Assembly (NCBI RefSeq): GCF_011397635.1
Contig: NC_064770.1
Coordinates: 5,909,826 to 5,973,825, forward strand
Direction of reading: 5' to 3'
From: Epinephelus fuscoguttatus
Lineage: Eukaryota; Chordata; Actinopteri; Perciformes; Serranidae
DNA: 64,000 bases
Shown: piece by piece, positions 11,879-60,117 of the stretch
Layout: each line of letters starts with the position of its first letter
Position numbering within the stretch: the stretch's first letter is position 1
Position numbers and translations under genes: made by a program
Notes under the pieces: model-generated
Database searches by the model: none
Seen by the model: the letters and a program-made list of their open reading frames with translations, nothing else
Told to the model about the DNA's origin: nothing

Positions 11879-12412
11879 ATGGAGCCAGCGTACCGGGGTC
11901 TGGGCCGCTGTGTGTGCTGCTTCTGGCTCGCAGTAGCCTTTGACATTGTGGGACTGGTTGTGCTGCTCATCGGGGTGTTTGTGAACATATTTTTCTATGA
12001 CCTGCTCATCTATGCGGGAGCCATCGTCATCTTCCTCAGCCTCATCTGGTGGGTGTTCTGGTACTCTGGGAACATCGAGGTGCCCCCGGCGGAGCTCGAG
12101 GATGATGTCGGGTTACTGAAGAAGGACAAGGGCGCTCTGGGCGGCATCAGCGGCGCGGTGAGGCGCCTCTCCAGCCGAGTGTCCAGCGGCATCAGGAACT
12201 CGTTCCGGAGGAACGGAGGACCGTCTAGCAGCCACACGGACCATACGCACAGGTCAGCCGGAGAGCCTCCGCGGGCCCCGCAAGCGGAGCAGGTGGCTGT
12301 TGCCATGGCAACGTTGACCCCACGGGAGGATACCCCGCACACGGCTGTCTCTTCAGTGGCGGGCTGTGACGTAGAAATGCCGCACACAACAACAGAGACT
12401 TCACCTACATAG
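11879..12412 (+). CDS. tmem238l: TMEM238-family two-pass membrane protein, probably TMEM238L
   Basis: A 177-residue protein. The start is the ATG at 11879 (gacATGg), where similarity to TMEM238 begins; the frame is open further upstream but without similarity. The N-terminus [19 protein letters not shown] leads into a membrane helix at about 15-36. A second helix is at about 43-62, containing the family signature [18 protein letters not shown], then [13 protein letters not shown]. Human TMEM238 has the same block (DLLIYSGALLVFLSL...WYTGNIE). The C-terminal half is basic and rich in Ser, Arg and Gly, and probably cytosolic and disordered. Function is unknown for the family. TMEM238L is the neighbour of PIRT on human 17p12, which is why I prefer it to TMEM238. 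The coding region is GC-rich compared with its AT-rich surroundings. Confidence 0.8.
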
Positions 12413-33257: not shown

Positions 33258-36200
33258 GAAAGCAGAATGTAATATTAAGCCTTCGACCTTACCTCCAGCA
33301 GTGAGAGACATACTTAGTTATACTGATGTTAGGGGACAGACACAGTTAGTGACAAGCTGGTGAACATCATGGAGCATGTAGCAGCTGAAGAGACAGATAT
33401 TTCATTCAGGAGTTGGTGGAGACCAAATATAGAGCTAAAATCAATGTTGGATTTACATTCACAAGGTGGACACAAACTTAACCCTGAATGAATGTTGTTC
33501 TATTTTGCCAAACACAGTGGACGTGTGATAATGTTAATCCCATGTGAACTGGCACCACTGTGATTTGGGGTTGCATAGGCTGTGATGATAGTTATACATC
33601 AAAGTTTTGGCAGCATTTTGGCTGCAGAAGGCTCATCTTGCTATACAGCCTGGAAACCTGTGCACACAGAAAAAAAGCAAGCTCAGATTTTTCAGAATTG
33701 GACAGTGTATGGGACACTTGCTTTAATTTAACCCACATTTAAATAAACAATCATTTTATCAGTGTAAAACGCACTTCATTCAAAGTCAACAAAAACAAAA
33801 CAAATCTCACAAAAGCCACCTTGGTTTGTCTTTCCACTGTTCCAACAGTCACAACTCTGGAAATAAACCCTTAATTCACCCAGTTGGATGTGAAAATATG
33901 CTGGCTGTATACGCGCTCAAATTAATGTTTTAATGCCTCCACGCTGGCGATAGCCGTGGCGCTAATTCTAGTTTAAAATGGAGTCTGGTGGGATTGATGA
34001 TGGCGATTTCAGGTCTGTTTCTGGTTAAACATAAGGAATCTTAATCTTCAACAAAGACATCACCCTCTGTAGGGATCCTTTTGACAGTCCTCAGCCACTT
34101 AGAATAACAAGCCTGTCAGTGGCAAAAACGCACTTTATGTGGACATATATTGACAGTGCTCAACTGCCCTGAGGGATTACACTGCAGCCTGTTTTTTGGC
34201 ACTGCTGGCTGTGTCGCTCAAAACTGGACCAATTTCAAAAACTGTTGTTCCCATTAGTCACTTAGACACAAACACATGGAAAAATAGGGTCCAGATTGTT
34301 ACCCCGTAGTAGGGCTGGGTGATATAACATCTGTGCCATGTATCAATATATTATCAGGCAAGATTTAGATTTAGACAATACCGTTTATATCAATCCAGGG
34401 TCAAGTTGCATTATATAAGGCATACCAGTGTGCTTCTCTCCTCTCTCACACTCTCCGCAAAGCTCCGCCCAACTCACTCACTCGCAAACTCTCCAGCAAC
34501 ACAAAGAGAGACACAGTACTGCTACTGTTTATTCTGTCAGTTTAATCTGTCAGCTCTCAGTACTTTTGTAGCTTCTAACTGAATCTCTGTGGTTTGTTGT
34601 TTAGTTTCTCTCCCACGTCCTGTTTGTACTTTCTGTTTCATGTTCGCTGTCGGCTGTATTAGAAGTTGTGTGAAGTTGCAGCTCAGAAACCCAAGATATA
34701 TATCATGTATTGCCATTCAGCCTGAAAATACAGAGATATGAATTTTTGTCCATATCGCCCAGCCCTACCCTGTAGCAACTATGTAAGGTGATATTATGTC
34801 CAGTGTTGGTGACAGCTGGTTCTAGTGCCCCCTAGTGGCCAAAAAGAAAAGAATGCCTTGTTCAACTGAAATTGAATTCCATCTTTTTCTCCTACAGCAT
34901 GCATATCTGCTAAAAAAATGGCATTTTCTTTGCTCCAATTTGAGAAAAAAAATGTAATGATGACTGTGCTGTGTGATTGTTGGTTTTATGGTGGTGTGTA
35001 TGGCAGTCAGAATGCTTCACTCTTCATACAGCCAGTCACCTCACATCCAATTTCTTCATGAGTTCTACAATACAAAATGTACCACTATCCAAATAATCTC
35101 TGTATGTTTGACTTACCCAACATCAAGTGTAAACTGCCTTGTTCTAAATCATCTATGCTGCTTTGGATTTGTTGCTTTTTGAGGATAAGGTCTGATTTAG
35201 TTATCTCATTTTCTTTGGTGAATATGCTCCTTGTGAGATGAGGCCTGTCTTGAGTCCTGTATGTGTTGTATTCTCTGTGTCACAGGCCCTGGCTGAGGCC
35301 TTCCTGGATCACCTGTGGAAGATCCTGCAGAGTCCCTCTCAGCCCGCTGTCCTCCGCCAGGCTGCTGCTGGATACCTGGGGAGCTTCCTGGCCAGAGCCA
35401 AGTTCATCCCTGTGCTGTGAGTTCATTCTGCTGAAGAGAACGCAATACAAAGGCAGCCAAAGTGAGCAGTTTATTCCTCTGTGACCATGTTTATTCTGCT
35501 GTTCTAATCCCCTCTTTGGTCCTCCCTCCTGCAGCACCGTGCGGGCATGTCTGGACCTGCTGCTCTCCTGGATCCATCGCTACATCGACAGCCAGGACAG
35601 CAGTGGCAGACAGGCCTGCTGTGACATCAGCCTGCATGGGCCCTTCTACACTGCCTGCCAGGCCGTCTTCTACACAATTATCTTCAGACACAGAGCCATG
35701 CTGGAGGGCAACATGAAGAAAGGTACACGCCTCTGATCTGCAGCAACATCAACAGTCAGCATCACCTGACACTCAAACATGTTAATCTTTTTTTCAACTG
35801 CACAAACTTTCCCTAGGAACCTTTTGAGGAACTTGTTGCATTTTGACTGCAGAGATCAGGGCCTAAATTCAGTTGCAGGAACATTCTTTTACCACCCAAA
35901 AAGTCTCTGATTGGAGGGTTAGTACTTTCTGAAAGAACAGGAACTTCTGGGATGGAGTTTGCAGGGAGGCGTGTCACTGATTGGTCAAACACACAGTGAG
36001 CCTGCTTCAAGTCAAGTACCGCTTCATTTATAAAACAACGGAAGTACTCTAGTATCAATTTAGGATCACTTTAGGATGAGGGGAGAGTATGTCTCTTTTT
36101 TATGTAAAGACAGGCTCTGCTGTGGTTTTCCTGACTCATTTTAAAACTGAGAGCGAAAAACAGACATCACACCAGTGAGCTCAGAGAGGATGACAGTGCT

Positions 36201-39200
36201 GCAGTGCTGTGAGGAAGGTGGTTAATGAGAGAAATAAAAAAAAAATTCTGATTGTTTCACAGAGGATATAGTAGTAGTTTCACAGAGGTCTAAAGTAGAA
36301 ATAAATGACCATCAAACTCAACAGATGATCCACTGTGGAGACAGACGCTCAAAGTTTCAATGTCCTTCTCAGCATTTCATTCATTACGTCTAATTTTCAG
36401 CATTATATGCAGCAGTAAATGTTGTCGTTGTGTATTTTTCTTTTTTTTTTTAGATGAAGCAGGTGGGCAAACTGACTTTGAGGCTGCACTGAGCAAGTTC
36501 ACCTCTGCCCACCAGCAGCCCTTGTCTGTCATATTGCTTTCTCTTTCATCAGCAGACTAATTTGCCCAATCTTCACGGGTTTTTAGACCGTTGTGGAACT
36601 GCAGATAACAGTGGGCTGAAGAACCTTTCAGCTTCTTGAAATGTTGACTCTGGGACTACATGTCCTGGAAACTTTGAGTCAAAACGTAGCTTTATAGAAG
36701 TCATTATAGAGTCATTTTGTCATCCTGACAGGACCACATCTGAATACTTTCATGCCGTTTGACATCACTGGTTGTTATTAAAATGTGTCAAACTACACTG
36801 GGCAAACACAGCTCATCAGTGTATGAACCTGTTCCCGTTAACAACCAGGATTTAAATAAAACACAAACTGCTGAAAACCATTAACACCAGGGTTTAAGGA
36901 TTTAGTGCAAGTAATACATATCAGAGTGTTTATGGTTTATCAAGTCAATTGATTATACATCAAATCTGCTTACAGCTTTAAAATTCAAATGTTTTTTGTT
37001 CAGTTTGACAATTCAAATGAAACTCAATAAATTACACTTTCCAAAATAAAATCACAAGTTACTGCGAGTCATGTGATGTTTTAAAATTGCTGGGGTTTTT
37101 TCAACCAACAGCCCAAAATTGGCAGCAAATCCACACTGAACAATAATATCAGACCATCTAGTTTTGTAACAAGGAAAGAGTGGAATGAATACATAGTCAC
37201 TCTGTCTTTTTTTGTGTGTATGTGTGTGTTTGTTTCAGGTTTGGAGTATCTGCAGAGTCTGAACCTGGAGCGAGTGGTGATGTGTCAGCTGAATCCCCTC
37301 AAAGTTTGCCTGCCGTCAGTCACCAGCATGTTTGCTGCCATCACCAGGTGCACTCCCTGACCCTGCTCTCTCATTGGCTCTGCTCATCCATGCTGACAGT
37401 TGACAGTAACCGTGCTCTCTAACTTTGATTACCAGTTTCTGTCCTGGAAATGCGGCATAGATTAAGAACCAAACAGTTATTACAGCTGGGAATGTTGTAT
37501 TTTTCGGAACGTTCTCATGTGTCTCAGTTACAGTGGTAGGAGAAGAACCAACACCACAGAGTAAAACTACTTCACCACAAACATTATCAGCAAAATGTAC
37601 TTGAGGTATCAAAAGTAAAAGTATGTGTTCCACAGGAAAATGGCTCCTGTGACTGATAGATTATTATTTTATTATGTGAGCAGACATTATTAGATTGATG
37701 ATAATTCAATGTGTGAGCAGCGTTTTTGTAATCTTCTGATAATAGGGCGCATTTTGCAACCATGGAGCACCACTGTGACTTGCAAATATTATTAATATAG
37801 GAACTGGGGAGGTGTTTGTTTGTTTCCAGCTCACAGTGAATAAATTTTCATGTTTAAAGACGTAGCGGTAATGGTTTAAGTTAATGGCAGTTTGCTAACT
37901 GCTAACAGTTAACTGTTGGCAGAAAACATCAACTCTTCTGTCCTGAAACAAGCTGGGTGCTTCAAAAAACAAAACAAAAAAAAAAGCAGCAGTGGTTCCA
38001 CTTTGATTTATGTAATTTTAACAATACTTCATTATCACAGTATTTTATTTAACTTTATTAGAATAGTACATTATTAAGCTTTATTATTACAGTAGCCACT
38101 TTATTTAACTTTATTGTAACTGTAGTTCATTTAATAATTTTGTAATTTTGGAAAAGAAGTATAACGTAGCATATATTGGACATACTCCAAGTACAATTAC
38201 CTAAAAATTGTAATTAGATAAAGCACTTGACTTAAACTTAAATGTGTTTAGTTGCTTTTCACACTGCCAACTTGGTTTTAAATAATACACACAACGGCTA
38301 ATGTGGCTGCCTCAGTGTTTTTAGGTACCTAAATCCAAATGTAATGTTATTTGGAAATGGCACATAGTGTGGAATAAACCACAGCTCTGCATTAGCATGC
38401 CCCCACAGTCGATAGTTTAAATGGTGTTTGAAGTTTCCCTCCTGGTCATCACAGCAGCTCTTGTTGTTTGTTGCAGGACGTATCAGGTGGTGTTCTGCTA
38501 CACTATCATAGAGAGGAACAACCGCCACATGCTGCCGGTGGTCCGCAGTTCTGCAGGGGGGGACAGTGTGACCACCAACACCAACCCTCTGGACAGCTTC
38601 TTCCCCTTTGACCCCTACCTGCTCAAGAGGTACACTGGCTCATTATTCTCTGTAATGTAACCTTTTTGGGCAAGACAGTCAATCTATAACTCTTTTATGT
38701 CTTTTATGTCCTCTGACTTCCCCACAGCAATCTCTGTGTTGAAATTTTGCTGAAATTATATTTCTTAGGAGTCAGAAGTTGTGAGTGGATTCTGTAGAAG
38801 AGGTGTCATATTCCAAATTGTTCTAATATTTTCAGTGGGATGCTCAATAGGCTGGGATTTAGCCTTCAGCTGTAAAAACAACAACATTATGGAAATAATC
38901 TTTACTGATGTCGACCATTTTGTTCAAGCGTAAAATCCTTTTTGTTTAGTCAGGAACAGTCAGAAATCATCACTATTGTCAAACCCACCAGACTCCATTT
39001 AAAAAACAAACAAAGAGTAATTTAATCATCAAAAGAGACACTCCCGTCAAAGTAGACAGAAGCAAAATAAAACTCAAAAAGCCTGTCTTGGTTCATGTCT
39101 CCACTGTTACAACAATCACCAACTCCAGTTTGGTTGAAATAAACTGTTAATACACCCAGTAAGATGTGAAAATATGCTGGCTCTATATGGGCTTAAATTA

Positions 39201-40878
39201 ATGTTTATTTAAATGGAGCCTGGTTTGTTTGGTGATAGCCATTTTGTGGCTGTTTCTGGTTAAACAAAAAAGGATCGTACTCTTTATTAATAAGGTCGAC
39301 CTCTGTCGGGATCTTTTCCATAATGTTGTTCGACACTTAGAATAACAATCTGAGCCAATCAGTGGCAAAAACCAGCACATTTGTGGATGTAAATGAACAG
39401 TGTTCAGTTTGCCTGCAGGGACTTTTTTTTTCTCTTTTCTTTCAGTGGTAGGTCATCTGCACTGGTGCTTTGTTGTAATTAGCTTTGTACAGTAAAGCGA
39501 TCCATTGTCCCATTCATGGCTTTCTCCTTATAAATGTTATGATCCCTCACACTGGCTGCCAATCAGGGCTTTTGATGTGTCTCACACAGTAATAATTCCC
39601 ATGCGCAAACCATGAAGGTTTTTTAAATTAAATCAAATTATATTTTTTAGCCCCTTATCTTTTAGCTGTACTTCTTTTTAGGAGATGGGTGCACACAACA
39701 TACTGATACATTCAGTTAATAATTAATTAATTATTCTCCAGTGCACACCGGTGTGCCACCATTTCAGAGCCACTGTCCTAGAAGACTTTGTAAGTGTCTT
39801 TGGTGCACAGGAGGTGTGTGACTCTATGTTTGGTGATTGTGTGGAATTAACTGAAAAACAACATCATACGTCAGACAATGGAAACTGTGTAAACCAAAGG
39901 CAACAAACAGGGTCTTAAAGGTGTGTGTGTGTCTGTTTGTGTCTGTGTGGGTGTGCAGGTCTGGTAAGCTGATTGAGCCACTGTATCAGGTCTGGGAGGA
40001 ACTATCAGACGCAGAGCTGCTTCCCACCAAAACAGGACAGCAGGTGAGACGACAGAAGGATCAGCCTGTTTAAGGAGTTCTATAGCAATTTACTATGACA
40101 CTGCCATTAAGTTGGAGGACTTGGCAGTTTTTTTAAGAACTGGGTCTGCAACTATTCTATTTTATTATCAATTATTTCCTTGTTCGATGTCTTTGTCTGT
40201 AAAAACATCAGAAAATAGTCACAGTCACAGAAGAGTTTCACAGAGCCCAAGCAGACATATTTAGATGTCTTGCTTGTTTAATCAACAGTCCAAATCCATT
40301 TGGACATTTCCTCACCTAAACAATGATATAATGATATACCTGATATAAATCAGGGAAACAGCCACATTCACACAGTGGAGACTCTTTAACCAGAGGAACC
40401 AACGTAGGAATCGTAGTCACTGATGTCATTAGTGACTTTATTCAGACAAAGAGCAACAAAAGACATCAAACAGCTGTTTCCCCAGGCTGAGTCATCCTGC
40501 CTGTGACCTGTAGAATATATGCCAGTGGTTAAATGTCCCTTTAAGTCTCCTTCCTCTGTGCTAAAGTTAAATATATGTCATCAGAGAAATGAAAAATACA
40601 TAAAAATATGAAATGGAAATGTATGTGTTATGGGTAAAAATGAGAGAATATGGAAATTAGCCATCAAGTGTCACTGTATCCTGTGTATTCCTTGATATGG
40701 GTTTGGGTTTTATCTTCATGTTTCATTCTGTGTGTGTCAGGGCTCGAGGGAGGACGAGGATGACTTTCTGAGTGGGGAGACGCCCAAAGCGGAGGGCATC
40801 GTGGGAATGACACCGAGCTCCTACGGCTCAAACATCTGCAGCCCGAGCAGCGTGGGTTCACCCCCTATCGCCTTCTAG
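23927..40878 (+). CDS. rrn3: RRN3 (TIF-IA), RNA polymerase I-specific transcription initiation factor
   Basis: RRN3 binds RNA polymerase I and recruits it to promoter-bound SL1, linking rRNA synthesis to growth signals; it acts in the nucleolus. Seventeen coding exons with GT-AG borders and matching phases: 23927-24022, 24249-24305, 24406-24495, 25379-25508, 26955-27014, 27802-27865, 29323-29392, 29623-29721, 30082-30165, 32352-32475, 33059-33189, 35286-35416, 35535-35722, 37239-37347, 38477-38629, 39959-40043, 40741-40878. They sum to 1809 nt, 602 residues. Near-identical blocks to human RRN3 include TVRFGG, VDISDSDDED, LPTHASCHVQ, LARAKFIP, LHGPFY, CYTIIERNNR and TNPLD.FFPFDP. The protein starts 33 residues after the human start; several regulatory sites differ (see findings). 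The gene is convergent with the STXBP4-like gene. Confidence 0.97.
24830..25205 (+). mobile_element. degenerate LINE fragment in RRN3 intron 3
   Basis: The plus strand, allowing stops and shifts, reads VMTERMRSRIQAAEINVLRR, then PGLSHRDRV and a 'GHLIRMPPG'-like block, ending in 'gtggttgaaaatgattggatgga'. This is the C-terminal end of a LINE reverse transcriptase common in fish. It is clearly inactive. Confidence 0.75.
27245..27450. repeat. minisatellite of about 42 bp in RRN3 intron 5
   Basis: Imperfect tandem units begin near 27253, 27296, 27338, 27379 and 27420. Each has a variant of 'ctctagggtgcccttc.agtggagaaaacatgatg'. The spacing is 41-43 bases. Confidence 0.75.
30030..30070. repeat. 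(GT)n microsatellite at the 3' end of RRN3 intron 8
   Basis: A pure GT run ends 11 bases before the acceptor of exon 9 (gtgtattttag|GTGAGT), taking the place of a usual polypyrimidine tract. Confidence 0.95.
31853..31945 (+). mobile_element. Tc1-like terminal fragment in RRN3 intron 9
   Basis: TA followed by CAGTGGCATGCAAAGGTTTG and ggcacccctggtcaaaat is the typical end of a second Tc1-type family, different from the copy at 16.3 kb. The next ~50 bases (ctaaagtatgattgagccacc) resemble its interior. No opposite end was found nearby, so it is a remnant. Confidence 0.6.
33207..33254. repeat. (GT)n microsatellite just after RRN3 exon 11
   Basis: A GT run begins about 17 bases after the donor of exon 11 (gtcagtactttcc). 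Confidence 0.95.
33765..34255 (+). repeat. dispersed repeat, copy A (RRN3 intron 11)
   Basis: Shares with 39020-39430, in the same orientation, the blocks 'gatgtgaaaatatgctggct', 'ctgtttctggttaaaca', 'acacttagaataacaa' and 'cagtggcaaaaac'. The copies are diverged and contain no coding sequence; family unknown. Confidence 0.65.
34310..34767. mobile_element. hAT-type miniature element (MITE)
   Basis: A 458-bp element with ends TAGGGCTGGGTGATAT and ATATCGCCCAGCCCTA, inverted with one mismatch. It is flanked by an 8-bp target duplication with one difference (CCCCGTAG at 34302-34309, CCCTGTAG at 34768-34775), as expected of hAT transposition. It encodes nothing and lies in RRN3 intron 11. Confidence 0.88.
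36454..36560 (+). other. possible alternative terminal exon in RRN3 intron 13
   Basis: A strong acceptor (T-rich tract then ttttttttag) precedes 107 bases that are open in the phase left by exon 13 and end at a TAA stop. The frame starts DEAGGQTDFEAALSKF and adds 35 residues. No similarity to RRN3 is seen. If used, it would truncate RRN3 before its last four exons. It may equally be an exon-like chance segment or a fragment of another gene. Confidence 0.2.
39020..39430 (+). repeat. dispersed repeat, copy B (RRN3 intron 15)
   Basis: The direct-orientation relative of 33765-34255; see that entry for shared blocks. Confidence 0.65.
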
Positions 40879-42133: not shown

Positions 42134-42264
42134 TTACTTCTGCAGGAAACTGTAGGCCAGTAAACAGATCATGTTGACCAGCCGCCACAGCAGGGCCAGC
42201 GTTGTTTTCACCTTTTGAATCTTTGTGTGTGTGTCATCATCATAAAATGGGGTCTTGGAAACAC
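42134..42264 (-). CDS. last exon of the STXBP4-like gene: predicted tail anchor
   Basis: The acceptor is ttcctgctgcag. With the G carried from the previous exon this encodes 43 residues and TAA. The first half is polar ([18 protein letters not shown]). Residues 21-41 are hydrophobic with one central Arg, and only Gln-Lys follows, the layout of a C-terminal membrane anchor. No ATG begins the frame, so it is not visible as an independent ORF. It belongs to this gene because the phase fits and no other minus-strand exons lie nearby. Confidence 0.75.
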
Positions 42265-42479
42265 CTGCAGCAGGAACTACCAAAATAACTATTTGAGCAC
42301 ATTGCTCTGTGTTTAAATTTGACTGTGGACAGATTCTGTCACTGTGATAGACTCACAAAAGTAAAAGATGCAGTCACGAAACTTTACATGCGTAAGTTTT
42401 GATTAAAATCAAAGCAGAGTTCAAAGATTGGTGGGGTTTGAGCAAGGGTGCAAGAATGTGTGTGTGTGTGTGTGTGTGT

Positions 42480-42526
<47 letters not shown>

Positions 42527-45500
42527 ACTCACTCACTCACTCACTCACTCACTCTTGGGGAGTGGTGGGGTGGTAGGTCCATGGCCTAGTGGCAACCTCC
42601 AGGCTGAAAATTAAGCCAAAAACTGCAGTTCCTCTAGTGCCCACTTGAGGCTGGCTCCAAGAGTGAGTCAATCCCCATAGACTCCAGTGTTAAAATGCCC
42701 AACTTTACAGCAGAAATAAACACGTTTACCGAGTAAACAGTTTTAGTTAGTAGTGGAAATATGACGTTAGGAAATCGGAGTAAACACACCATCAGATCCA
42801 GTTAGCAGTTAGTCCTTTAATATAAAACAGTAACAGAAAGATATGAGGCCACACCAAAGATGCAATTTTGTTGAAGTACAGGACATGTCAGTATTTTTAA
42901 AAGTATTTGCAGCTGTTCATATAAATGAAATGAATGTTCCACGTGTAGCCTATGGCTGCCTAGACTCTGTGACTACCAAACACAGGTTTACACAGCAGGA
43001 GCTACAGCGACATCAAAGCCACTCCTGGATGCAGGAGACACATCAATATGAATCATGCAGTACAAAGCCACAGATGACAAACACTGCTCCACTCCAGTAT
43101 CTCTGAATACTTCATTCTTTGCCTTTCTTTAATGAATAAGGGCACGAGGAGAGGTATCAAGATGGACAAAGGGACACTGTTGGTTTGTTTTCTACTTTTG
43201 CTCAACAGTTCATAAGCCCTGTGGCAGAGCAAAGAAGCGACGTTGTGTGATGGAGGCAGATGGCAGCGAGTTATTATGACACAAAGGAAGACTCATTGAA
43301 CAGACCAGCTCTGGATTGTTCTTTCCAAGCTAACAAGTCCTCCTATACATGCAATCCAGGGAGTGAAACTGTGTGTGTGTGTGTGTGTGCGTGTGTGAGG
43401 GGTTAGAAAAGTGGTCAGGAAGGAGTATTAACAAGGTTTACAGCAGCATGTGTGTGTTGTGGACTTGGTCATGCAGCTCCTCCAACACCACCTGCTGTCT
43501 GAGTAACAAGAGAGAGAATTCCAGCAGACTTTTTATTTGGCAGAGCATTTCTCATAGAGACTTCTGTACATAGATTATGGGCGAATGATGAGAGGCCTTG
43601 GGTCACAGCTGACTGCAACACACCTTGCTGCTGCTGAACCCTCCAGAAAAACTTGTCGAATATTTCAAAAGAAGACACTAATTTGATGTGTGCGAGCAAA
43701 CTTTGGCATTAAAACATGTTATGTTTGATCTGTCTCTGTCAACTGAGGATTTGATTGGATTGAAGTGATATCATTATTTTGAGAAGGCGTGTTGGATGGT
43801 GTCCAGTCTGTTGACTATGATGTCTTCCATCATGGGTTCAGCTGCTGATTCAGCCTCTTCAGCATGCCCAGGTCCTCTCACAGTCCTCTCTGGCTCTTTG
43901 TTGCTCACATATGATGAGGGTTAACATCTGGGACTGATGCTGCCTCTGATGCACTCGGTGACTCTAAAGGTCAATCACAGTTGGACAGAAAAAGACAAAC
44001 AAACAAAATCAAATACTTTAACATGCTCGGTATCATCATCTGTATCTTGTGGTGTGCGACAAGGACAGTCGATGTGCCAGCAACTGATGAAGCAGCACTG
44101 GACACCATCCCACCAGTTCCATTCAGTATTAAGCTCAGTAATGGTGCTTTCATGCCAAACATGATTACATACAAAGTCAATGCAAAGATGCAAACAGGTG
44201 CGTGCCAGACAACGTGAATGATGCTAACGCATCTTCCTAACATACAGTGAGTGGGTGAACTCTTGGGGATGGAGCACGAAAAATTGCTAAAATATAATTA
44301 CTTATATTACTCATATTACTTTAATTACTTGTATTAGTAATTACTAAAAATACTAAGAGCGACAACAACATTCAGGGAGCCTATCAAGCCCTAATCGAGC
44401 CAGAGCAGCAACTTTCTGTTGCTCTGAAAATAGGTCGGAGGGTGCACAAAGTTTAACAAAAATAGAGCCAGGGCAAGTGGTTTTTAAAATAAGTGACACC
44501 TCCCTTGGCCCGTTTGCTATAGCATAAAGCAGTTCACGACATCCTCACTGGGAGAAACTGGAACAATCTGATGTTCCCTTGTTCGCGTCAAGTTAGGAAT
44601 CAGTCTAACACATGAAATTCACATAATCATGCCAGTTTAAATGTTTTCAACATGTGAAAAATTCATGTGATGTGAAGCCTATCAGTGTTGAGATCTAGTT
44701 GTGAATAACCTGAATTGACTGAGAATCAGAAATGATGGACAAACATATTGTCGCCATCTGCATGCACCTGGAGCTCTACAGCTCATCATCAGTACTGTAA
44801 CATTACAGAGACAGAGCAAACAGGAGGGCTCAGAGATTAGTGAGTGATGCCATAGGACTACATAATTAAGTTCTCAAAATATGTTATTTATTTGTGACTT
44901 GTTAAAGCTATTTTTCTTAGTTGCTTCTTAGAAAAAATGCTCTGAGTAATTTAAGTTAGTCTTTTATTGTGGAATGTAACCAATGAAAAGAGCGACTCAG
45001 TAATGTGCCTCTGTGGTCAAGATGAAAGATAAAGAGTGCTGCCATCTGGTTCATGTTGATTCAGAGCATGGAGCCTCCATGTTAACTGTGTTCACATCAC
45101 TTGATTCAAGTTAATGGTTATACTTTACAACAAATTAAGCTTGCGCGTAGCTGCCTTCCTCAACTGGCAAAACCATTAGCACCACTGTGAAGGGTGAATA
45201 TTCACCAAATGCAAAATAGTCCAAAAAGAAAAAACATTCCAGCAGTTGTATTTGTGTGAGTAATGCAAGACGAAAATTGGCTTTGCATTCAGTGTGACTG
45301 ACCAGCCAGTCAGGTTCATCCTTCACTTTTACACACACTATCAAAACTTAATGTACCAACTGCTGTGAAATTAGCCGAGGATGAAACATTTTTAACATGA
45401 TAATTGAAAAAAAAAATGTAAAACAGAAAGTGAAAATAAATAAAATCAATAATAGAGTAATTTGAGTTACAATGTAACCTGCAGCAGACTGAGCCTGTTT

Positions 45501-48500
45501 CTATCATCCTTGACCAAACCATATCAGAATGATTAAACATAAATATATATCAGTAAACATTAATTGACTATCAAATTTGATTTCACAATGAATCCATTAT
45601 TAAATCAATTAAAGAACTAATTATTTCAGCTCCAGTGTGTCATGTGTGTTGTGGAGTATTCCAGTGTAGTCTTTTTCAGCCTGCTCTGGTGAATTTCTAG
45701 TGTGTTCTCTGTACCTCTGTCATCAGCAGTGGGGGTGCAGACTCCTGCCACCAGCTCTTTGGCCTCCACAGCCAGTTGGAAGGCGGGATCAGGGAGTGGT
45801 GACGGGGTGTCAGGGCTGTCAGTGGCAGGAGATGACCTGTTGCTCCTGGTAAACAGAACACACAGAGGAAGAGTGGTTACAGCAGGACTCTTGCTGCAGA
45901 GCTGCCTGTGGGTGACTAAAGATGTGATGTAGAGCAGTAGCTGTTCAAAGCCTCTTACCCGCCTTCTCCTCCAAACAGGCTGGGTGTTGTCAGCACTTTG
46001 TGGACGTTCTGAGGACACAATAAGAATGTAAGAGTTATGTGAAGTTCTGAATTGATATTGATTTCTTAATAACACTGAACCAATTCAGATACCAAGTCTT
46101 CATGTGACACCGAAACAAGGACCTGAAGGTCCCAAAGACAGAGAAGGTGATAAAGTGTTTTCAGAGCCGATGGGGAGGTGTGATTTCAAAGCCAGTGTTC
46201 CAACAAATAGAGCTCCCACTCAGAATGACAGTGGACCACACATACAGTATGAAAATCATGGACAATCAATCATCACTCATGAAATATCTGCACATACCAA
46301 CTGTGAAGTATCTACAAATGATGCATGCAATAATGTAAACTCTGTCATTCACTCTCATTATTATATCTTGCTTTCATTTTTACTGCTTACAATCATCACT
46401 CAATATGAGTATATGCTAAACTGTGCAATATCTATACTTTCATCAGTCTATAATGTGAGATCAGCCCTTTAGTCTGTCTCTTTATTATATTTTGCTTCTT
46501 TTTGCTGCTTACTTATTATATTGCTTTGTGTTTTAATAGTTTATTTATTATATTGCTCTTTGTTTTGTACAGCTTGGTTATTATATACAGATCTGTGTGT
46601 TTCTTTTTACTGATTCGTACAAATACATTGTTTCGTTTTTTTTTCTATTGATGCTTCCTGTTTGCACTATCCCTTTGCTGCTGTAATGTTGCAAATTTCT
46701 CTGCTGTGGGAGGAATAAAGGATTAGCGTATCATATCATATGGTATCATATCGTGTGGTATCGGATCAAATCTCCTACCTGACTGAACAAATTTGCGGGT
46801 AGCTCATAAGAGGGAATTTTTAATTGCATTTAGGAGAGCCCCTAGTAGTAAGGTAAGATCCTTATGAATATGCTGTCTGATCTTTATCGAAGTGGTCTTT
46901 CATGTACAAATTTAGTGCCATAGTCTACAGCCTGACTGCCAGTAGAGTCGTGTTTGTCACTGAACTTAAGCCTTTCAGAAGCAAGAAAAGACAGACCAAT
47001 CCATATATATGACTCATGCATGTGGACCAATCCCACTACTTTGTTCTTTTGCTGATTAAGACTTGAAAACCTTCTTCAAAAAAGTGACTTTAAAAGAAAG
47101 GGTGAGACAAGTCTGTCTGGTTTATAAAATGTTGCAGGGAGCTGCAGTGTGTCTCTCGGCCACTGGGGGGTAGACTGGCTCCAGAACAGTTTAGGGAACT
47201 AGTACTGTAGGGCATGAGGATGTTAAAAACTGTCAGGTGTTTCTGAATAGCTCTGTGTGCTGTCTGTCTGTTGAATCCAGTGAATGAGACTGCATAAAGT
47301 GTCCCACTCTGCATGGATTATGAAATGGGACAGAACACATGCTGATTGTCGTGGAGTCTGTTTTCATCTATTGACAGTCTTAAAGGCCTGTTAGGTAATG
47401 AATTATTTTTATCAAACTCTACAGAAAACTAGAAATGACTACAAATAGAGCACTTATCTTTTAAACAAGCTACTGTCAAATATGTGCTATACTGATGTGC
47501 TCCGTCTTATAATTAAAAATGACAGCAAAGTTACAGAAATCATTTTAGAGATTTGTCTCTTCAGACGGGTGTTCTCCTCCACAGTCAGACATGCTTTCTG
47601 GGAAGGACAACAGAGTGGTAAATGTATTCATGTGTAGCATGTGATGCAACGCTATGCAGACTTCTAGAGTTGATACTTTTATTTTATATTTGTGAACAAA
47701 TCTAACTGGTTCCATCATCTAAATAGATGGGAAATAACAGCCATGCTACATGGAAGTGCCAAAAACTGCAGTTCCTCGAATGGCCACTTGAGGCTGGCTC
47801 CAAGAGCGAGTCATTCCTCATAGACCCCCGTGCTAAACAGCCTATTTAAATGTTAATAAGGCTTACTGTTATGCATAATGAAAGGCAAGGCTGCTGTGAG
47901 TGACAGGTGGGTGCCGTCCATTGACAAGTCACCACCACAGTGATAATGTTGGCGAGGTAACATAACCATGGTGTAACCCCAGATTCACAGAGTATAGACG
48001 TTGCCATAGCTGTCCCAATCTTAGTGTTTTTTCAGTGACATGCTTTACTGTAGAAAACTTCATTAAAACAAAATGGAAGGAGTGAATGAACAGAGAAAAT
48101 CAAATTCAGTGTGAGAGTGTCCAGTTAAAGCTGTACCTGTGCAAAGCCCAGCAGCTTCTTGTTGGAGATCTCCAGGTGTTTCCTGCTCAGCTCAGACTTC
48201 TTCAGCTGGCAATCGATAGTTGTCAGTCTCTTGTTCAGCTCCAGCACCTCATCCTGAGAAACACACATCACACACACAATCAATCATTTGTTTTGGTATG
48301 TCAACAATAAACAGAGAAAGAAAAGTAATAATAAATCTGCACAAAAATAATATGGTTTCAACCCAACGGACTTGAGCCCCTAAAAATGAAATAAGAAGGG
48401 GTAGGAGGAAGGTTCCACTAGATTAGACCACATATTTAAACTCATCTAACCACGTGACCATGTACTCAGCAGCTGTCATATTTATTTTGGTCTTCAGAGG

Positions 48501-51500
48501 AGAGTAGTGAAGAGGTTTCAGAAACTGCTGTCCTCATTTCTGTTATTCTCTCATCATATTTGCCACTGGATAATGCTCCGCCTCACAAGAATCCTGTAAG
48601 GCCGTATGCCAGTGTACAGCCAGAGGATTTACCACCTGAGATGAAAAGCCACAGGTAGTGAGGCAGTAAGCCTGAGAGCCAGAGGAAATAAATATAAAGC
48701 CTTCTTTTCATCAAAGCAGGCTGCTGTGGGTGAAAACAGAGGCAAAGCTCTGTGACTCTTTCAGCAGGGCTGTGCATCACAGAGAAAAGCTGGGGCACAC
48801 TGACGCTGCTGCAGGGCCTCCAGCCTGTGACAGAGGATGGAGATAGAACAGAGGAAAGGAAAAGCTTGGCTCAATGCTATTTAAATTCCATGCGATGTTA
48901 TCTGGAGGAGAGGGTTCATGTCTGCACAGTCAATTGTTGCCTCTCGGCTTGAGCTCATATAGCTGCAGAGGTTGTTCCACACACAGCTGCTCTATCTGTT
49001 TACCTCGTGTCTGTAGGTGTTACAGGTGCCATCCCACAGAAACAAGCCCCCGACGGATTTTAAACAAGTCTGTGCACAAGTCTCTGATGCTGGCAGAGAT
49101 TGTTGAGAGTGAATTCATATGTTTTGAATTAAACATAGACCCTTTAAAAGGCTGCATTACAGTGAAGTGATGTCATTTTCATAACTCACCAGACTGTTGT
49201 AGCTAAACTATTATTTATATCTCTATGTTAATATTTTATGGATTAGTCAACCCTATAAAATCATCACAATATTGATAGATGTATTCGGTAAATAATATTG
49301 TGATATTTGACTTTCTTCATATCACCTAGCCCTATTAGTTCAATGGTGTTCATTATGTCTTTAGTTTATGATAGTGACTTTAGGTTCTTTTATCCCAGTC
49401 CATAAGATGATTTTCTCTTTTGCAGTGATCTGTTATGGCTGATTTGTAGGTTTCTTGGACTATGCACTGAGGACAACAAATACCGGCGCTGGATCATGGA
49501 GGCTATTGAAATAAGGAGGCGGGGCCCAGGGACAATGAACAGGGATGAGGGGGCATACATGCTCTCCCACACCTGGAGCAGCATCCTGGAGAGGCGGCGG
49601 ACAGACAGCAGGTGGCTCCCTAGTGTTGATCAGATCAGCTGATAAAGACGCGTCACAACCACCACCAAGTGACACTTCTGAGGAAGGCTGAAGTTTCCGC
49701 CGAAACATGTCAAGGTATGTAATATCCTAACATATCTGAGATAAAAGAACCTAAAGTCACTACCTAGCCCTATTGTTGGGTATGCATTTTATTTGTTGAT
49801 TACATGTATTGTATGTAAAATCCAAATCTATGAAGTACATAGACATACACACACACACAACATACTTACACACTGAAATAAATGTGGAGTCAAAAGTACA
49901 CTGTTTCTGAAATGTAATAAGCATAAAAGTAAAAAATAACATACAACAGAAATTGTTAAATACCTGCTTGAGACTCACCTTGGAGGACTCCATTCCTCGT
50001 GTTTGCCTCTTGCTGGCCAGCTGGTTCTTCAGGTCTCTGATCTCAGCTTCCAACAGCTGTATAACCTCCTCGTAATCCTGCTCCGCACTGCTGGCCTGCC
50101 GCTGGCCTGCCTCAGCCTCCGCTGCCTGCAGACGACTCTTCAGACGGGTGTTCTCCTCCACAGTCAGACATGCTTTCTGGGAAGGACAACAGAGTGGTAA
50201 ATGTATTCATGTGTAGCATGTGATGCAATGCTATGCAGACTTCTATAGCTGATACTTTTATTTTATATTTGCGAACAAATCTAACTGGTTCCATCATCGA
50301 AACAGATGGAAAATAACAGCCATGCAACATGGAAGTGCCAAAAACTGCAGTTCCTTGAATGGCCACTTGAGGCTGGCTCCAAGAGCGAGTCATTCCTCAT
50401 AGACCCCCGTGCTAAACTGCCTATTTAAATGTTAATAAGGCTTAATGTTATGCATAATGTAAGGCAAGGCTGCTGGGAGTGACAGATGGGTACCGTCCAT
50501 TGACAAGTCACCACCACAATGATAATGTTGGTGAGGTAACGTAACCATGGTGTAACCCCAGATTCACAGAGTATAGACGTTGCCATAGCTGTCCTGATCT
50601 TAGTGTTTTTTCAGTTCATGAAAGTTTATTGTTACTTTCTGGTTGCCTAAAAACGTCTTGTTCAGCGTTTGGTTGTACTAAAAGAGACTCTAAGGAGTCG
50701 GATATTCAGTTTTTCTGTTAAGTACATGTTTTAAAGAAGTGGTCTTAAGCCTGTTTTTCACTAGTGAAAATTAGCATATCGTTGTGCAGAAATGAGTCCT
50801 AAAACCCAGAAATGAGTTAGTATTTTAGCACTCCTGGTTAGCTCCTCTTGAAGTCAGTGGGGTTTTTTGAATGAGTTTTTGGTTAGATGCCTGAAACAAG
50901 GTCTGTCACAGGCTGAAGAGACTTTCACGTTTTGTTCTATGACATCAAATGCCTCAGTAAATACCCCACTCATAAACTTTGAAGCCTTTACCTGTCTTAA
51001 AAAAGAAGGTTGCTGGCTAACTGAGACTATAGAACGTCATCATGTCCAACACGACTATACAGCCTTGTTGTGGTGGCAACAGTGAAGTCATGTGAACGTG
51101 GTGTAATTATTATTTTTTTGATTGCATTTATGCTTCAAAAATCATAAAACTGGTGTTCATTTGTGACGATTATCTTGTTGAACAAAATGTGTAATTATCA
51201 TAAAACTTTGTTCTTCACAGAGCTTATTTTCTGCAAGAAGTCAAAAGCCAGTGGGAAAATTCCATAGGCTATTTGCTGAGGAAACTGGTTATGTGAACTA
51301 AATAAATGTCATCCCTGCAGTACTCTATTAGTATTTCACAGCTAATAGCTGTAAATGCACAGTGCTAACTAAGCTAGCGGCTAGCATTAGGGTTATCTCC
51401 ACCCTCTTGTCCAAATATTGTCATTTCTGGCTCCAAAAATCCAAGATGGCAATAGCCAATATGCCAAATTTGAGTCTTCAAAACAGGAGTTCACAAACCA

Positions 51501-52223
51501 GTGGATAACATTCAATTACTTTATTGTCTGTTTCAAACTTGACAACATAAACATTCTATATGGGTGTATTTCCTCTTAGAACATTTGTTGATGCCTTAGC
51601 TAACAGGAAGTAAACAGGGATCAAAGATGTTGCCCTAGGAGCAGTATAGCAGTGACACGGTCTATACAGTTTATACTCCATATACTGTCTTGGCTCGAGT
51701 CTCACCTCTGACGTCTTCTGCAGCTCCTCCTCCAGGGTTTTCTTGCTATGCTCCATGTCCTTCAGCATCACCTGCCAAGAGAGGCAGCAGATGAAGCCTG
51801 GGAGGGTTTTGACAGCTGTATCCATCAGGTCAGAGGGTCTGTGCACTTCTGTGGCTCAGTGAAACCAGACTACATAACAGAGAAAATGCTTCCTTTTGCC
51901 CTCATTCATTTCATTTTATTTGGTTACCATACACAGGTGTCAGTTGTTTTCCAACTCAGCTTTGGCCACTGGCTCAAGGCCACCTTACGATTTTATCCCT
52001 AAGACTCAGTGGCTTCTTTGACTGAAAAACACTTTAGAATTGTAGTCCCTTATATTTTACTTTGCTAGAAGTTTTTCCACATTGTAAGAAAATGTCATGT
52101 ATGTAACTGTGTGTCTGTGTCTGAGTTCACCTTCAGCTGTTTCATCTGAGTTTGCAGCTGCTTCACCTCTGTCTGAAACTGTTCCATCTCCTCACTGCTG
52201 TAGCTGCATTCTGATTCATATGT

Positions 52224-52290
<67 letters not shown>

Positions 52291-55200
52291 TACACAGTCA
52301 TGTATTTTACAGGTTACCTTCATGACAATGAAGCAAATGAAGCTACACCTGTTGGGTATCTTGTAAATATACTCTGTGTGAGAGTGCTAGCATGTGAAAA
52401 GCTGTGTGAGGACTGCTTACGGGGGAGTGGAATGCGGACGTGTCCATCAAACTAGCTGCTTCATGATAGGAAAACATGAAGGGTCCCGTCCCTAAACCCA
52501 GCTCCTCCAGGTTCTCCTGGAAAATGTTCCGGGTGGCCTCCACGAAGTCTAACAGTCAACAGAAAAACATAGACAGAAATGTTTGCTATTGGTGACAAAG
52601 AGGCCAGGGTTACCATAGCTACCAAACCAAAGAATACTTATCTAAAGACAGGAGAGCTTGTTAGGGCTATGGCTTGCTCACAATCATCATTAGTAAAATG
52701 CCAGCTGATGCATATTTCAAAGCTTTATAAATATTCTGACTCCTGAAACCTTGTCCTAACAATCAGTAGCCATGGGCTCCTCTAAACAGCTGCCTAGCAC
52801 TCTGAAAACTAAAATAAGTGATGCCCACAAAGCAGAAAAAGGCTATAAGAAGATAGCAAAGTGTTTTAAGGTAGCTGCTGTCTTTATCAATGCAAAATAA
52901 AGAGAACTAGTGAACTTTGCCAAGATAATCATGACACCAAACCATCTGAGAAGTAATTTGTTGAGGGATTTGGGGTTTGACAAAATAGAATGAAACATTG
53001 TGGATCAAAGTGAGGTTGTTTGCCAACTTATACTCTGCAGGATAACCACTCACTGTTTGTAAACACGCTTGCCAGCAAAAGTGAGAGTAAAAACCAATCC
53101 CAGCTTGCCATTTTGCCTTGCTATATCTCTTACCTTTGCACTATGAGTCATGTTTGTTGCCATAGAATCCTACACCACATGACTTGGTTCCCGATTTTAT
53201 TTGCATCTAATCGAAACACCCAAATAATCCTGATGTTTTGATTTAAGAGTGACAAAAATGCTTCACCATGTATACATATACTATAGGTCTGGAAGACATT
53301 AGTACCGATAATTAATTGCAGCCCTGAAGAAATGAAATTCTAACTTAATTTTCTCGTACCTAAAAGTGTTTATGATATGTTATTTAACTTAATATTTTAG
53401 CATACATTTGAAGATTTATTTTATGACACCTTAATTAGTTGATAGAATTCGTACTGATTAGTAATTAGTAGCAATAAACAAATATCATTTTATAATATCA
53501 TAGCAATTTATGACCCAGCTCCTGCTGTGATAAGAGTTACAGGTATGGAGCATCATAGAAATGTCTGCCTGGCTACAAACAGACACAGAGCTGCTTCATG
53601 GTTACTCAATGTGACACTGCACCCAAGTGACACAGCCACTCACTGACACTTGCTGACATGCAGCCATCACATGGAGCCTGTGATATGACAGGATTTCAAC
53701 GCAGATATTTCACCTTGCTGTTGACACAACTGGAAGTGTGAGTGTGTTTGTGAGTGTGTTTCTGTGTGTGTGCTTCACCTCCATAGGCCACAGTGCCTTG
53801 TGGGTCTGTGGTCAGACTCTGTCTCAACTTCTTCCTCTTCTCCTCTGTGACATCCAACCCGAGAAAGGACAGAGCCTGAGAGACAGAGACAGAGACAGAA
53901 GGTAAACAGGGATATAAAGACAGTATCTTTACCATAGTTCCTTTGCAGCATCACTTAACCCTTAAAGGGCCAGTGTGTAATATTTGGCATGGTTTATTGT
54001 CAAATCTGAATCTGAATCTGAGTATTCTACCCATTAATATGTTTATATGAGTGTATAATTGCTATAAAATAAAATTCATTTGGTTTTCGTAGCCTTATAA
54101 TTATGCTTTGATATATATGTATATAGCAAGGGCCTTGCTTTAGAGAGGTCGCCATGTTGCGCCGCCATGTATGTAAGGCAGCCCGAGCAGACAATCCAGC
54201 CAGCCAGAGAACGCGTTTCGCGTGTATAAATAAACCAACGAAGACAGCGGAAGGAAGGAAGGAGGAGGAAACAGCAGAGAGTGTTAGTAGTTCGTCGATA
54301 GAGAGTAGTGAAAAGTTTTTTTAGTTATAAAGTTTGCGAATGGACCACACTTACCACGCAACAGAAGAGAATGAACCCAAACTGTCATCTGCGAGGAAAA
54401 GAAGACGCAACTTCACTCCTTATGATGCACTCTCTGCGGCGCTTTTCCTCCTGGTGATATATCTCCCCAGCGATGGTAGCAGTAGCACCGAATCCCATTC
54501 TGTGCATTCAGCCTCTCTTCTCACCCGCTCAGTGTACTCCAGCTCTCATCTGTGTACTCCGGCTCAAACAGGTATGGCTCTGGATCTGTGTCCGCTACAA
54601 GAAACTCTTCAAAATCGCGTTCAGCTGAGCTCTGTTTACAGGCTACGCTGTCAGTGTGCGGGCTGGAGATTGGTGGAGCAGAGAGGGGAAGAGGTCCCCG
54701 CTAGGTATTGTAAACGAGTATGTGTGTATGAAGTGTGTGTGTTACGCTAGAAGAGTTGGAGGGACGGAGTCTTTTACCCCCTGGAGTGTTACCAGAGTTT
54801 TTGGAGTGCTTTTTCCCGAACGCTACTCTGGTCTCCTGCTCGTGAGTGACTCATTACAATATCATAACATGGTTTAGATTTCTAAATAAACATTTACCTT
54901 GTCGCTAGATAGACCTACTCCTGAAAAACTCGTGTCTGCGCAAGGCTTTTTGTCCCTATGAGGCCACCGTCATTGGTGGGGTGAACGAGTGAGCCCTGCA
55001 ATCTAGAATTTGACCACTGATGTCACTGTTTTCAACCCATTTTACACACTGGCCCTTTAAATGGGCAAGCACATATAAAAATTTTGGAAAAATAATTAAT
55101 TGCTATTTTTTAATGTTTCTAGGCTAAAATAACACAATTTCATGATTTTTTTCAAAATATGACCTTTATTTTTCATTTTACAGTTTGTATCTCCCAGTAT

Positions 55201-58200: not shown

Positions 58201-60117
58201 TTAGGCGGCCTCATGACCTTTCATCTTGTGCTACCTTATTCACTGTGAGGGTCCAAGGACAGAGGGATGTTGTATGCTGTTATGCCCTCTGTGGCTAATT
58301 GTTATTTGTAACATTGGACTTTATAGATTAAATTGATACTGAAACTCAGTGGAAATTACTATTTGTACAGCCCTTTGAGGCATGCTTTGTGATTGGGCTC
58401 CAATGACTTGACTAATCTGTACAGTGCTTTAGCTTGCTTTTGGGTATGAAATGTGCTATATAAATAAATTTGCCTTGACTCACCTTGCCTACAATGCTGA
58501 GCATGTTGCTGCTCCCCAGAGGAAGCATCTTTTTACATCTAATGACCCCATTACCTCTGCATTTGTTAGCGCCACAACTGCTAAGGCTCTGATAATTGTC
58601 ATCAGCATATTGTTCTTTCCATCATTTCAAGCTCACACTGCACACTGCAGCTATTCAGCTATTGACAGGCATTATTATGGATCCAATCCTAGAGCCAATC
58701 TCAGAAACGGTTTGAGCTTAAAGTTGTAACTTCATGAGAAAAACTCACATATATACTGCCAGAAAGTCAGGTCATGGGGTATAAAGAGTGACACAGTCTG
58801 TGGAGGTACGATGAATGGGTTGAGCACAGAACTTTCACACGTGAGCATAGGGTTCCAGTCCCGTTTGAGTCAATACTGGCTGGTTATTTTTAAACTTAGT
58901 TGACTTATTAGTTTCATTTTCTAGGATGTACAAAGATGCTAAATGCACACTGTGTACATAAACTTTAGCAGAATACCTCCAGAAACTTTTCACTGGGGTG
59001 GCCAGATGTGGCCACTGAAAATCTTGGGGTGGCACACCAAAACCAAAAGCCAAAACTAAATTTCAGGCATTCGATTATGCTATTGAAGTATATAGGCTAG
59101 TTGAACAAGAGGACAGGGGGGTAGGACTAGAAAAGTTTCTTATAACTTCTTTCTATCCCTTTTGGACATGATGTTTGGGTGATAAATTGAATATAGACAG
59201 ATGTACTGTCTTCCAAAGTGTTAAGGCCTTGTTGCCTGTTGATTACAGGTTTATTTGTTTTTTTGGTTGTTGTTGTTGTTTTTATTTGTGTGTAGGCTTT
59301 ATTCCTTACTCTGCCTTGACTTTGATTTTGTTTTTATTTTGTTTTAACATGTTCATAAAAATTGATTGATTGATTGATTGATTGATTGAAAACTATGTCA
59401 ATATGAGAGTTAAGGTATCACGTGGTTTCTTAGTTTTGGTTTCTTATTTTACTAATTATCTGATGCACATAGACTAATACAGGTACAGTTAACATTTTAA
59501 ACTCCATAACAGTCCTGTTTTAATATGTTATATATCTGTATATACATGTTAGGTGATTGATTGTTCTTCAAACAGGCAGGTTGCCCTTTTTCTTGAAAAG
59601 ACAAATATACAGCTTAAATTTGAAGGAATAAATTGATTGTAAGGAACCAAATACTTACTGGAAACAACCATAGTGAGTATCCATAGAACCCATTTTCATT
59701 TAGATATATTGAGGTGAGAGTTCAAGGGACTACAAGGGGGGCTACAATTGGATCAAGGTGGCCACGGTCTCCCTGCACCCAGCCTTTGGGGGCACCAACG
59801 CAATAGTGCAATGAAAAGGTTAAGAAAATCACAGGGAGAGACAGAGCAAAGTGGATGAGCAGATTCATGCACGTACCAGAGCAAATAAACCTAAGGCAAA
59901 GAGTGCCCATCCCACAGCTTGAGTAAACGACTCCAAACATACTTTGCGTCACACGCCAGGAAAAATATATTTAGCAGCATGGCTTTAAAATAACATCCTT
60001 GCCCATCTGACCAGAGGACACAACTCACCAAGTCTAACTTGTCTGATTTGAGGCGTATGTAAGGGTCCAGTGTTATCTTCGGTTTGGAGCCTGTTGGCGA
60101 CCTCTGGCTGGTTGAAC
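42134..60117 (-). CDS. STXBP4 (Synip)-related coiled-coil protein with a C-terminal hydrophobic tail, 3' part
   Basis: Ten exons on the minus strand, in transcript order: 60117-60029, 53875-53779, 52548-52421, 52223-52131, 51771-51706, 50176-49979, 48253-48137, 46008-45959, 45845-45715, 42264-42134. All have GT-AG borders and matching phases; they give 365 complete residues and a TAA stop. The order matches human STXBP4: a [20 protein letters not shown] block, a helical [16 protein letters not shown] block, a long coiled coil ([36 protein letters not shown]), then a Pro/Ser linker to [14 protein letters not shown]4 binds syntaxin-4 and controls GLUT4 vesicle fusion; it has a PDZ domain and a C-terminal WW domain. 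Here the PDZ exons must lie beyond 60.1 kb or outside the window. The WW region is replaced by a hydrophobic end ([20 protein letters not shown]). It may be a paralogue rather than STXBP4 itself. Confidence 0.85.
42457..42553. repeat. (GT)n-(CT)n-(CACT)n compound microsatellite
   Basis: Three adjacent simple tracts: gt, ct, then cact. It lies in the last intron of the STXBP4-like gene. Confidence 0.95.
42595..42765. repeat. miniature element, 'atagactgtaaaaataatgg' family, partial copy 2
   Basis: Contains gccaaaaactgcagttcctc, ccacttgaggctggctccaa and aactttacagcagaaataaa, the reverse complement of blocks in the copy at 5955-6420. Confidence 0.6.
42766..45714. other. last intron of the STXBP4-like gene, nothing else recognised
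   Basis: Searched by eye on both strands for a WW-domain exon (WEE..., YFINH) without success. A GT run lies at 43372-43395. A plus-strand frame at 44023-44217 starts [11 protein letters not shown] and looks a little like a secreted-peptide start, but it has no splice context or recognised relative. Confidence 0.45.
46460..46760 (+). repeat. LINE-like 3' tail with (TATCA)n end
   Basis: T-rich sequence with repeated ttattatattgc motifs, then 'gcaaatttctctgctgtggga' and 'ggaataaaggattagcgtatcatatcatatgg'. This matches the style of fish LINE ends (caatttcccc..gggat.aataaag). No coding part is left. Confidence 0.5.
47557..48036. repeat. 480-bp duplication, copy 1
   Basis: About 480 bp closely matching 50136-50615 in the same orientation. 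It carries the first 41 bases of the coiled-coil exon 50176-49979 together with its splice acceptor, plus part of a miniature element. It sits in the intron after exon 48253-48137 in transcript order. Confidence 0.93.
49337..49761 (+). mobile_element. Penelope-like element, 3' fragment
   Basis: The frame reads [20 protein letters not shown], then [13 protein letters not shown], and stops at a TGA near 49642. The following 'gaggaaggctgaagtttccgccgaaacatgt' is a familiar end of Penelope-like retroelements. It is flanked by a 13-bp direct repeat (acctagccctatt at 49324-49336 and 49762-49774). Inside, agtgactttaggttc near 49374 and its complement near 49745 form an inverted repeat of about 22 bp. 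Only the end of the open reading frame, after the GIY-YIG nuclease region, remains. Confidence 0.75.
50136..50615. repeat. 480-bp duplication, copy 2 (contains the genuine exon start)
   Basis: The counterpart of 47557-48036. It overlaps the 5' end of the functional exon 50176-49979, so this is the original copy and the other the duplicate. Confidence 0.93.
50616..51510. repeat. miniature element continuation, 'atagactgtaaaaataatgg' family
   Basis: The element begins within the duplicated segment near 50338. Its far part, at 51405-51510, holds 'ccaccctcttgtccaaatatt', 'atggcaatagcc' and 'caaaacaggagttcacaaacc', the complement of the start of the copy at 5955. The middle (50640-51400) contains no coding sequence. 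Confidence 0.5.
52226..52287. repeat. (CA)n microsatellite abutting a splice acceptor
   Basis: On the minus strand this is (TG)n running directly into the acceptor tgcag|ACATAT of the exon 52223-52131 of the STXBP4-like gene. Confidence 0.96.
53966..55056. mobile_element. non-autonomous piggyBac-type element
   Basis: A 1091-bp element between two TTAA sites (53962-53965 and 55057-55060), the hallmark of piggyBac insertion. The inverted ends are AGGGCCAGTGTGTAA, identical over 15 bases. No transposase is present. A 138-codon plus-strand frame at 54334-54750 has an RKRRR motif and no recognised domain; it is probably chance sequence or a relic. A cgtgtataaataaac promoter-like motif lies near 54218. 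Confidence 0.87.
55061..56712 (-). mobile_element. piggyBac element with internally deleted transposase
   Basis: Proposed ends are the TTAA at 55057-55060, shared with the preceding element, and the TTAA at 56717-56720. The end sequences ATGGGCAAGCAC and ATGGGTCAAGTAC (minus strand, after a G-run) are similar but offset, so the exact borders are tentative. Palindromic tgtatctcccaggataca motifs occur at about 55183, 56437 and 56783. The last of these lies outside the proposed border, which adds doubt about that end. Confidence 0.6.
55395..56632 (-). pseudogene. piggyBac-type transposase, internally deleted and frameshifted
   Basis: The first exon reads [12 protein letters not shown] and ends at a good donor (gag|gtaagt, 56597). 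An acceptor at about 56264 (tgatttcag) continues [14 protein letters not shown] and an acidic stretch ([18 protein letters not shown]). Next comes directly GTIRKNRL, which in complete piggyBac proteins lies well past the first catalytic Asp. [14 protein letters not shown] (second Asp region) follows, then EYNTHMGG, a frameshift, VDL.LADMM (third Asp region) and a Cys-rich C-terminus ([11 protein letters not shown]). The first third of the catalytic domain is therefore missing. Confidence 0.8.
56721..57880. other. intron of the STXBP4-like gene, nothing recognised
   Basis: Low-information sequence. 'taggcttgggcggtatttaat' at about 56982 resembles the end of a hAT miniature element, but no partner end was found. 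Confidence 0.4.
57890..58730. repeat. dispersed fish repeats and L2-type tail
   Basis: Blocks 'gtccccagaggattaatcattttggcgacctcatgacctttt' (57920), 'gtccccacaggattgattctttaggcggcctcatgacctt' (58170) and 'gctccccagaggaagcatc' (58510) are related to each other and to the reverse complement of 3260-3360. Between them, 58330-58480 ends 'gtgctatataaataaatttgcctt', an L2-type 3' tail. Confidence 0.55.
59361..59388. repeat. (GATT)n microsatellite
   Basis: About seven gatt units follow 'cataaaa', in the style of a LINE tail. Confidence 0.9.

Follow-up and report, generated by a model that had tools for sequence, protein, structure and literature searches.

The window, i.e. the whole 64,000-nt stretch of DNA that was analysed, corresponds to C19:5909826-5973825 of the 1.05 Gb genome. 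Splice-site scoring with consensus tables joined nine exons of a gene on the minus strand, running from 60117 down to 45715 and consistent in order and phase. A convergent neighbour, RRN3, lies on the plus strand. These features are as follows.

60029..60117, minus strand: exon, 29 residues, the first of the gene in the window; aligns to residues 178-222 of the human STXBP4 query; acceptor 11.0, donor 4.8, phase consistent
53779..53875, minus strand: exon, 32 residues, EF-hand-like by eye; from human STXBP4 alignment and splice-site scoring
52421..52548, minus strand: exon, 43 residues; from human STXBP4 alignment and splice-site scoring
52131..52223, minus strand: exon, 31 residues, coiled coil by eye; from splice-site scoring
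51706..51771, minus strand: exon, 22 residues, coiled coil by eye; from splice-site scoring
49979..50176, minus strand: exon, coiled coil, 58% identity to residues 337-389 of the human STXBP4 query; supported by splice-site scoring
48137..48253, minus strand: exon, 39 residues; from human STXBP4 alignment and splice-site scoring
45959..46008, minus strand: exon, 16 residues; from splice-site scoring
45715..45845, minus strand: last secure coding exon, 44 residues; donor of phase 1, at the position of the intron before the WW domain of STXBP4
35283..40875, plus strand: convergent neighbouring gene RRN3, 3′ exons; those at 39960 and 40741, the final two, identified by eye only

The human STXBP4 query, whose WW letters match those of PDB 2ysg, aligned in order at five places (residues 178-222, 207-254, 255-284, 337-389 and 395-435). 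The coiled coil of the C19 gene is homologous to human residues ~337-435, with identities of 58% and 46% to the human query. Reading of the genome beyond the window located a PDZ domain in two upstream exons; when joined, these matched PDB 1wi4, the PDZ domain of STXBP4, at 94 bits, the top score of any single-PDZ chain, with the multi-PDZ chain 2xkx scoring higher (100.7 bits). The C19 gene therefore keeps its PDZ domain, outside the window. By sequence comparison, the minus-strand gene is a paralogue of STXBP4.

Several repeats and transposon remnants were observed in and around the gene. Two 300-nt copies, at 47557-47856 and 50136-50435, are 97% identical and lie 2579 bases apart; because the copied unit spans the start of the coiled-coil exon, with its acceptor and first codons, a decoy acceptor is present in a downstream intron. 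An 85-nt unit, probably an interspersed repeat, occurs three times in the introns or flank of the gene (42615-42699, 47758-47842 and 50337-50421; 87% identity to the reference copy). A piggyBac-like transposase (Pfam DDE_Tnp_1_7) is represented by fragments in an intron at 55306-56269 on the minus strand, and the plus strand carries a Tc1-like transposase at 16627-17382 and a reverse-transcriptase fragment at 21843-22412. PIRT (3662-4066) and a TMEM238-family gene (11879-12409) were also found on the plus strand.

Searching the genome with the gene model returned the C19 locus, another convincing one on C20, and five weaker hits with E values of 0.3 or more, 4 of which are copies of a repeat described below. 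The C20 gene encodes a PDZ domain, a coiled coil and a WW domain split over two exons. Its coiled-coil exon shows 74.5% identity to the human STXBP4 query, and its joined WW domain scored 59.8 bits against 2ysg, with two multi-WW chains ranking higher. Across 269 shared columns, identity was 62% between C20 and human, 48% between C19 and human, and 50% between C19 and C20 (human query sequence, C20 partial). PAR bZIP exons, read by eye as HLF, adjoin the C20 gene, and HLF appears as a neighbour of STXBP4 in a human 17q22 gene list (PMC5013272). The 3′ neighbour of the C19 gene is not HLF; the convergent RRN3, which occurs at one place in the genome, stands there instead. With PIRT, the TMEM238-family gene and RRN3, the C19 neighbourhood is unlike that of human STXBP4. 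Thus, the C19 gene shares with mammalian STXBP4 (Synip) and the C20 gene an STXBP4-type PDZ domain, the coiled coil, the exon order and a phase-1 intron after the LAxEAKEL exon, and differs from them in its neighbour, in its lower identity to the human protein and in having no detected WW domain. On these comparisons the C20 gene is likely the STXBP4 orthologue, in agreement with the original prediction that the gene in the window could be a distinct paralogue. Another pair of similar PDZ-encoding exons lies on the same strand upstream of both the C19 and C20 genes; it may belong to a neighbouring gene common to the two loci or be an additional PDZ domain of the genes themselves. No relative was found when one coiled-coil exon was compared with viral and genome contigs. 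In the literature search, no paper on an STXBP4-like paralogue, none with fish stxbp4 in its title among those listed, and none on a tail-anchored syntaxin-binding protein 4 was found.

Exon 45845-45715 had been predicted to end in phase 1 at the point where human STXBP4 continues to its WW domain. Both parts of this were borne out, the phase by reading and splice-site scoring, and the position within the same genome, since the intron preceding the WW exon of the C20 gene is also of phase 1, like the donor at 45715. A WW profile was built from eight domains; it gave 44.4 bits to the held-out STXBP4 WW domain, 29.3 and 25.3 bits to the halves of that domain, and 19.7 bits to a single exon, the first of the two that encode WW in the C20 gene. 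Among 2452 open reading frames of at least 18 codons in the window, no WW domain was found, the best score being 7.3 bits, and a Pfam scan of the intron in three frames showed none either. Pfam queries with long read-through frames also returned no WW or PDZ domain, but these missed the piggyBac fragment and were discounted; queries with shorter pieces recovered it and were used in their place. The absence of a WW domain from the window therefore supports its predicted loss from the C19 paralogue, as had been proposed. We considered whether a WW exon might be present beyond RRN3 or be too diverged to detect. The WW exon of the C20 gene lies 18.8 kb past the preceding exon, so long introns do occur; however, the window runs 42 kb past 42264 with no such exon, the split-domain controls were recovered, and the convergent RRN3 lies between. 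This explanation is regarded as very improbable.

The remaining question is where the C19 protein ends. Three features downstream of the last secure exon bear on it.

42134..42264, minus strand: proposed tail-anchor exon, 43 codons plus stop (TAA); unlikely to be a regular exon of this gene
42164..42448, minus strand: copy of an old interspersed repeat, by genomic matches; covers the proposed acceptor and, where the match is longest, tail codons 1-34
43905..43963, minus strand: rival last exon, phase-compatible, ending in TGA, with AATAAA at 43537; single-copy DNA

The original prediction had joined exon 42264-42134 to the gene, so that the protein would end in a hydrophobic tail anchor. Together, the nine exons and the proposed tail form 365 stop-free codons, of which the tail contributes 43. 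Taken alone, the signals of this exon were favourable. The acceptor at 42264 scored 5.3 bits, in the top 1.1% of 4160 minus-strand AGs and third among the 290 AGs tested in 45680-41001. The tail had a codon score of 0.224, a value that 7 of 350 noncoding pieces also attained. Its hydropathy was 1.85, close to that of the tails of BCL2 (1.83) and CYB5A (1.82) and far below that of VAMP2 and STX1A; 32 of 310 noncoding ORF ends were equally hydrophobic. AlphaFold2, run without an alignment, folded the conceptual tail as one helix over residues 7-42, with mean pLDDT of 93 over residues 21-30 and 92 over 31-40; Arg and Asn occur inside the hydrophobic segment. AATAAA follows at 383 bases beyond the stop (385 had been given), which says little because this motif is common here, about one per 753 bases per strand. 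Rfam gave no match on 41-46 kb. The acceptor, the 43-codon frame and the TAA stop were thus as described, but the exon is not the only phase-compatible one downstream: among the same 290 AGs, terminal ORFs at 43218 (5 codons) and 43498 (23 codons) have better acceptors, and a further one begins at 43963.

Genomic comparison showed that the proposed exon is in large part repeat. A protein search with the 43 tail residues hit 26 places, the window included. Twelve of the 25 other places were read, and all 12 matched at the DNA level (67-86% identity; E 3e-30 to 6e-14) over stretches reaching up to 42448-42164. Nine of the 12 crossed the acceptor by at least 10 bases, and five reached codon 29 or beyond, the longest ending at 42164, which is codon 34. 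This protein search favours copies with open frames, whereas a DNA search is neutral to them; in the latter, 40 of 320 candidates were scored and all 40 matched, the window being one, and 35 of the 39 others crossed the acceptor and 11 reached codon 27 or beyond. Nine of the 12 copies read were examined further; six of them have an AG at this position, and the conceptual peptides of the nine are similar (GVSRTxFxxDDTHTQTHKVKT...). The copies are spread over many chromosomes. The acceptor and at least codons 1-21 of the 43 (34 in the longest match) are therefore repeat DNA; codons 35-43 and the stop fall outside the matched repeat. Since an AG here and a peptide of this kind are also present in other copies, the coding-like codons of the tail need no selection. 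Coding statistics had been considered as evidence for the tail and were set aside after the stretch was recognised as largely repeat; the noncoding controls were not repeat copies. The conceptual tail of the C19 protein differs from those of tail-anchored proteins in that its DNA is largely repeat. This repeat nature cannot be recognised from a single window, and the case is a caution that a hydrophobic, coding-like and in-phase "last exon" read from one genome can be largely repeat-derived.

A repeat copy may nevertheless have been exonised as the terminal exon, in which case its hydrophobic helix would anchor the clamp permanently in a membrane, replacing the insulin- and PIP3-regulated attachment through WW. 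In favour of this are the fitting phase, the rank of the acceptor, the 43-codon frame, the hydropathy and the predicted helix. Among the ten copies compared, the window copy also ranked first in acceptor score (5.3 bits; at most 1.8 in the other nine) and in the hydropathy of its most hydrophobic 19-mer (1.85; at most 1.47 elsewhere), with a longer hydrophobic run, as would be expected of a recruited exon. Codons 35-43 do not derive from the matched repeat, and only the 11 of 39 places and five of 12 copies mentioned above reach into the hydrophobic run. In addition, among 3823 noncoding AGs there was no case of an acceptor this good and a 43-codon ORF together with a coding score or hydropathy as high, these controls not being repeat copies. 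Against it, the acceptor and first 21 codons belong to the repeat in most matches, other copies contain comparable open frames (these copies came from the protein search, which favours open ones), about one in ten noncoding ORF ends is as hydrophobic, and the segment contains Arg and Asn. We judge exonisation unlikely, and the predicted membrane-anchored protein is not upheld.

Two other endings would give a soluble protein. The gene may end in another short last exon, for instance 43963-43905, yielding a soluble WW-less product. That exon is phase-compatible and, in a genome search with 401 bases, single-copy; a T-rich tract lies upstream of it, AATAAA follows 368 bases after its stop, and its codon score is matched by 8% of noncoding 18-codon pieces. 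Its acceptor is weak (-2.3 bits), GC at third codon positions is low (0.28), and no resemblance to the C20 C-terminus was seen by eye; an ending of this kind is possible but doubtful. Alternatively, exon 45845 may itself be the last, extended by read-through past its donor to a stop just past 45629, which would add 29 codons. The donor at 45715 is weak (-0.3 bits), AATAAA is present at 44968, and intronic polyadenylation is a simple route to loss of a domain, but the codon score of the extension is -0.10. Read-through appears somewhat less probable than a separate short last exon, though less unlikely than exonisation.

We therefore favour, with good confidence, the reading that the C19 gene encodes a WW-less STXBP4 (Synip) paralogue with a PDZ domain and a coiled coil, whose normal C-terminus is most likely not the repeat-derived hydrophobic tail. 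The repeat copy holding that tail would sit in a 3′ intron or in the flank of the gene, and the normal C-terminus would probably be short and soluble, provided by another small last exon or by read-through of exon 45845.

If the tail were real, syntaphilin and syntabulin, mitochondria-attached syntaxin-binding proteins, would be the working analogue of the C19 protein. Both have a tail anchor, and syntaphilin is named a syntaxin-1 clamp in the title of a reference. A review describes the two proteins on mitochondria. The Pfam matches listed for the C19 model up to an E value of 10 comprise 21 families, none of them syntaphilin. Permanent anchoring of the C19 protein by the proposed tail is not supported.

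In mammalian Synip, according to one report, syntaxin 4 is bound by the coiled coil and PIP3 by the WW domain, which holds Synip at the plasma membrane after insulin has freed it from syntaxin 4 (PMC3411842). In the same paper, Synip without WW retained syntaxin 4 binding but its amount at the plasma membrane dropped after insulin, and when overexpressed it still inhibited insulin-stimulated Glut4 translocation (PMC3411842); for this last reason, WW loss may matter little for clamping. A review attributes to STXBP4, acting through its WW domain together with PY-motif proteins, the retention of YAP in the cytoplasm (PMC11312123). By analogy, the coiled coil of the C19 paralogue would still bind a syntaxin and block its pairing with the vesicle SNARE, and the protein would lack the PIP3 and PY-motif binding of mammalian STXBP4. 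Having no WW domain, such a clamp would come off the membrane after its release. By inference, then, the C19 paralogue would be a syntaxin clamp without the WW functions. As a natural paralogue with the PDZ domain and coiled coil but without WW, it would make it possible to study how such a clamp acts in the absence of PIP3/WW control.
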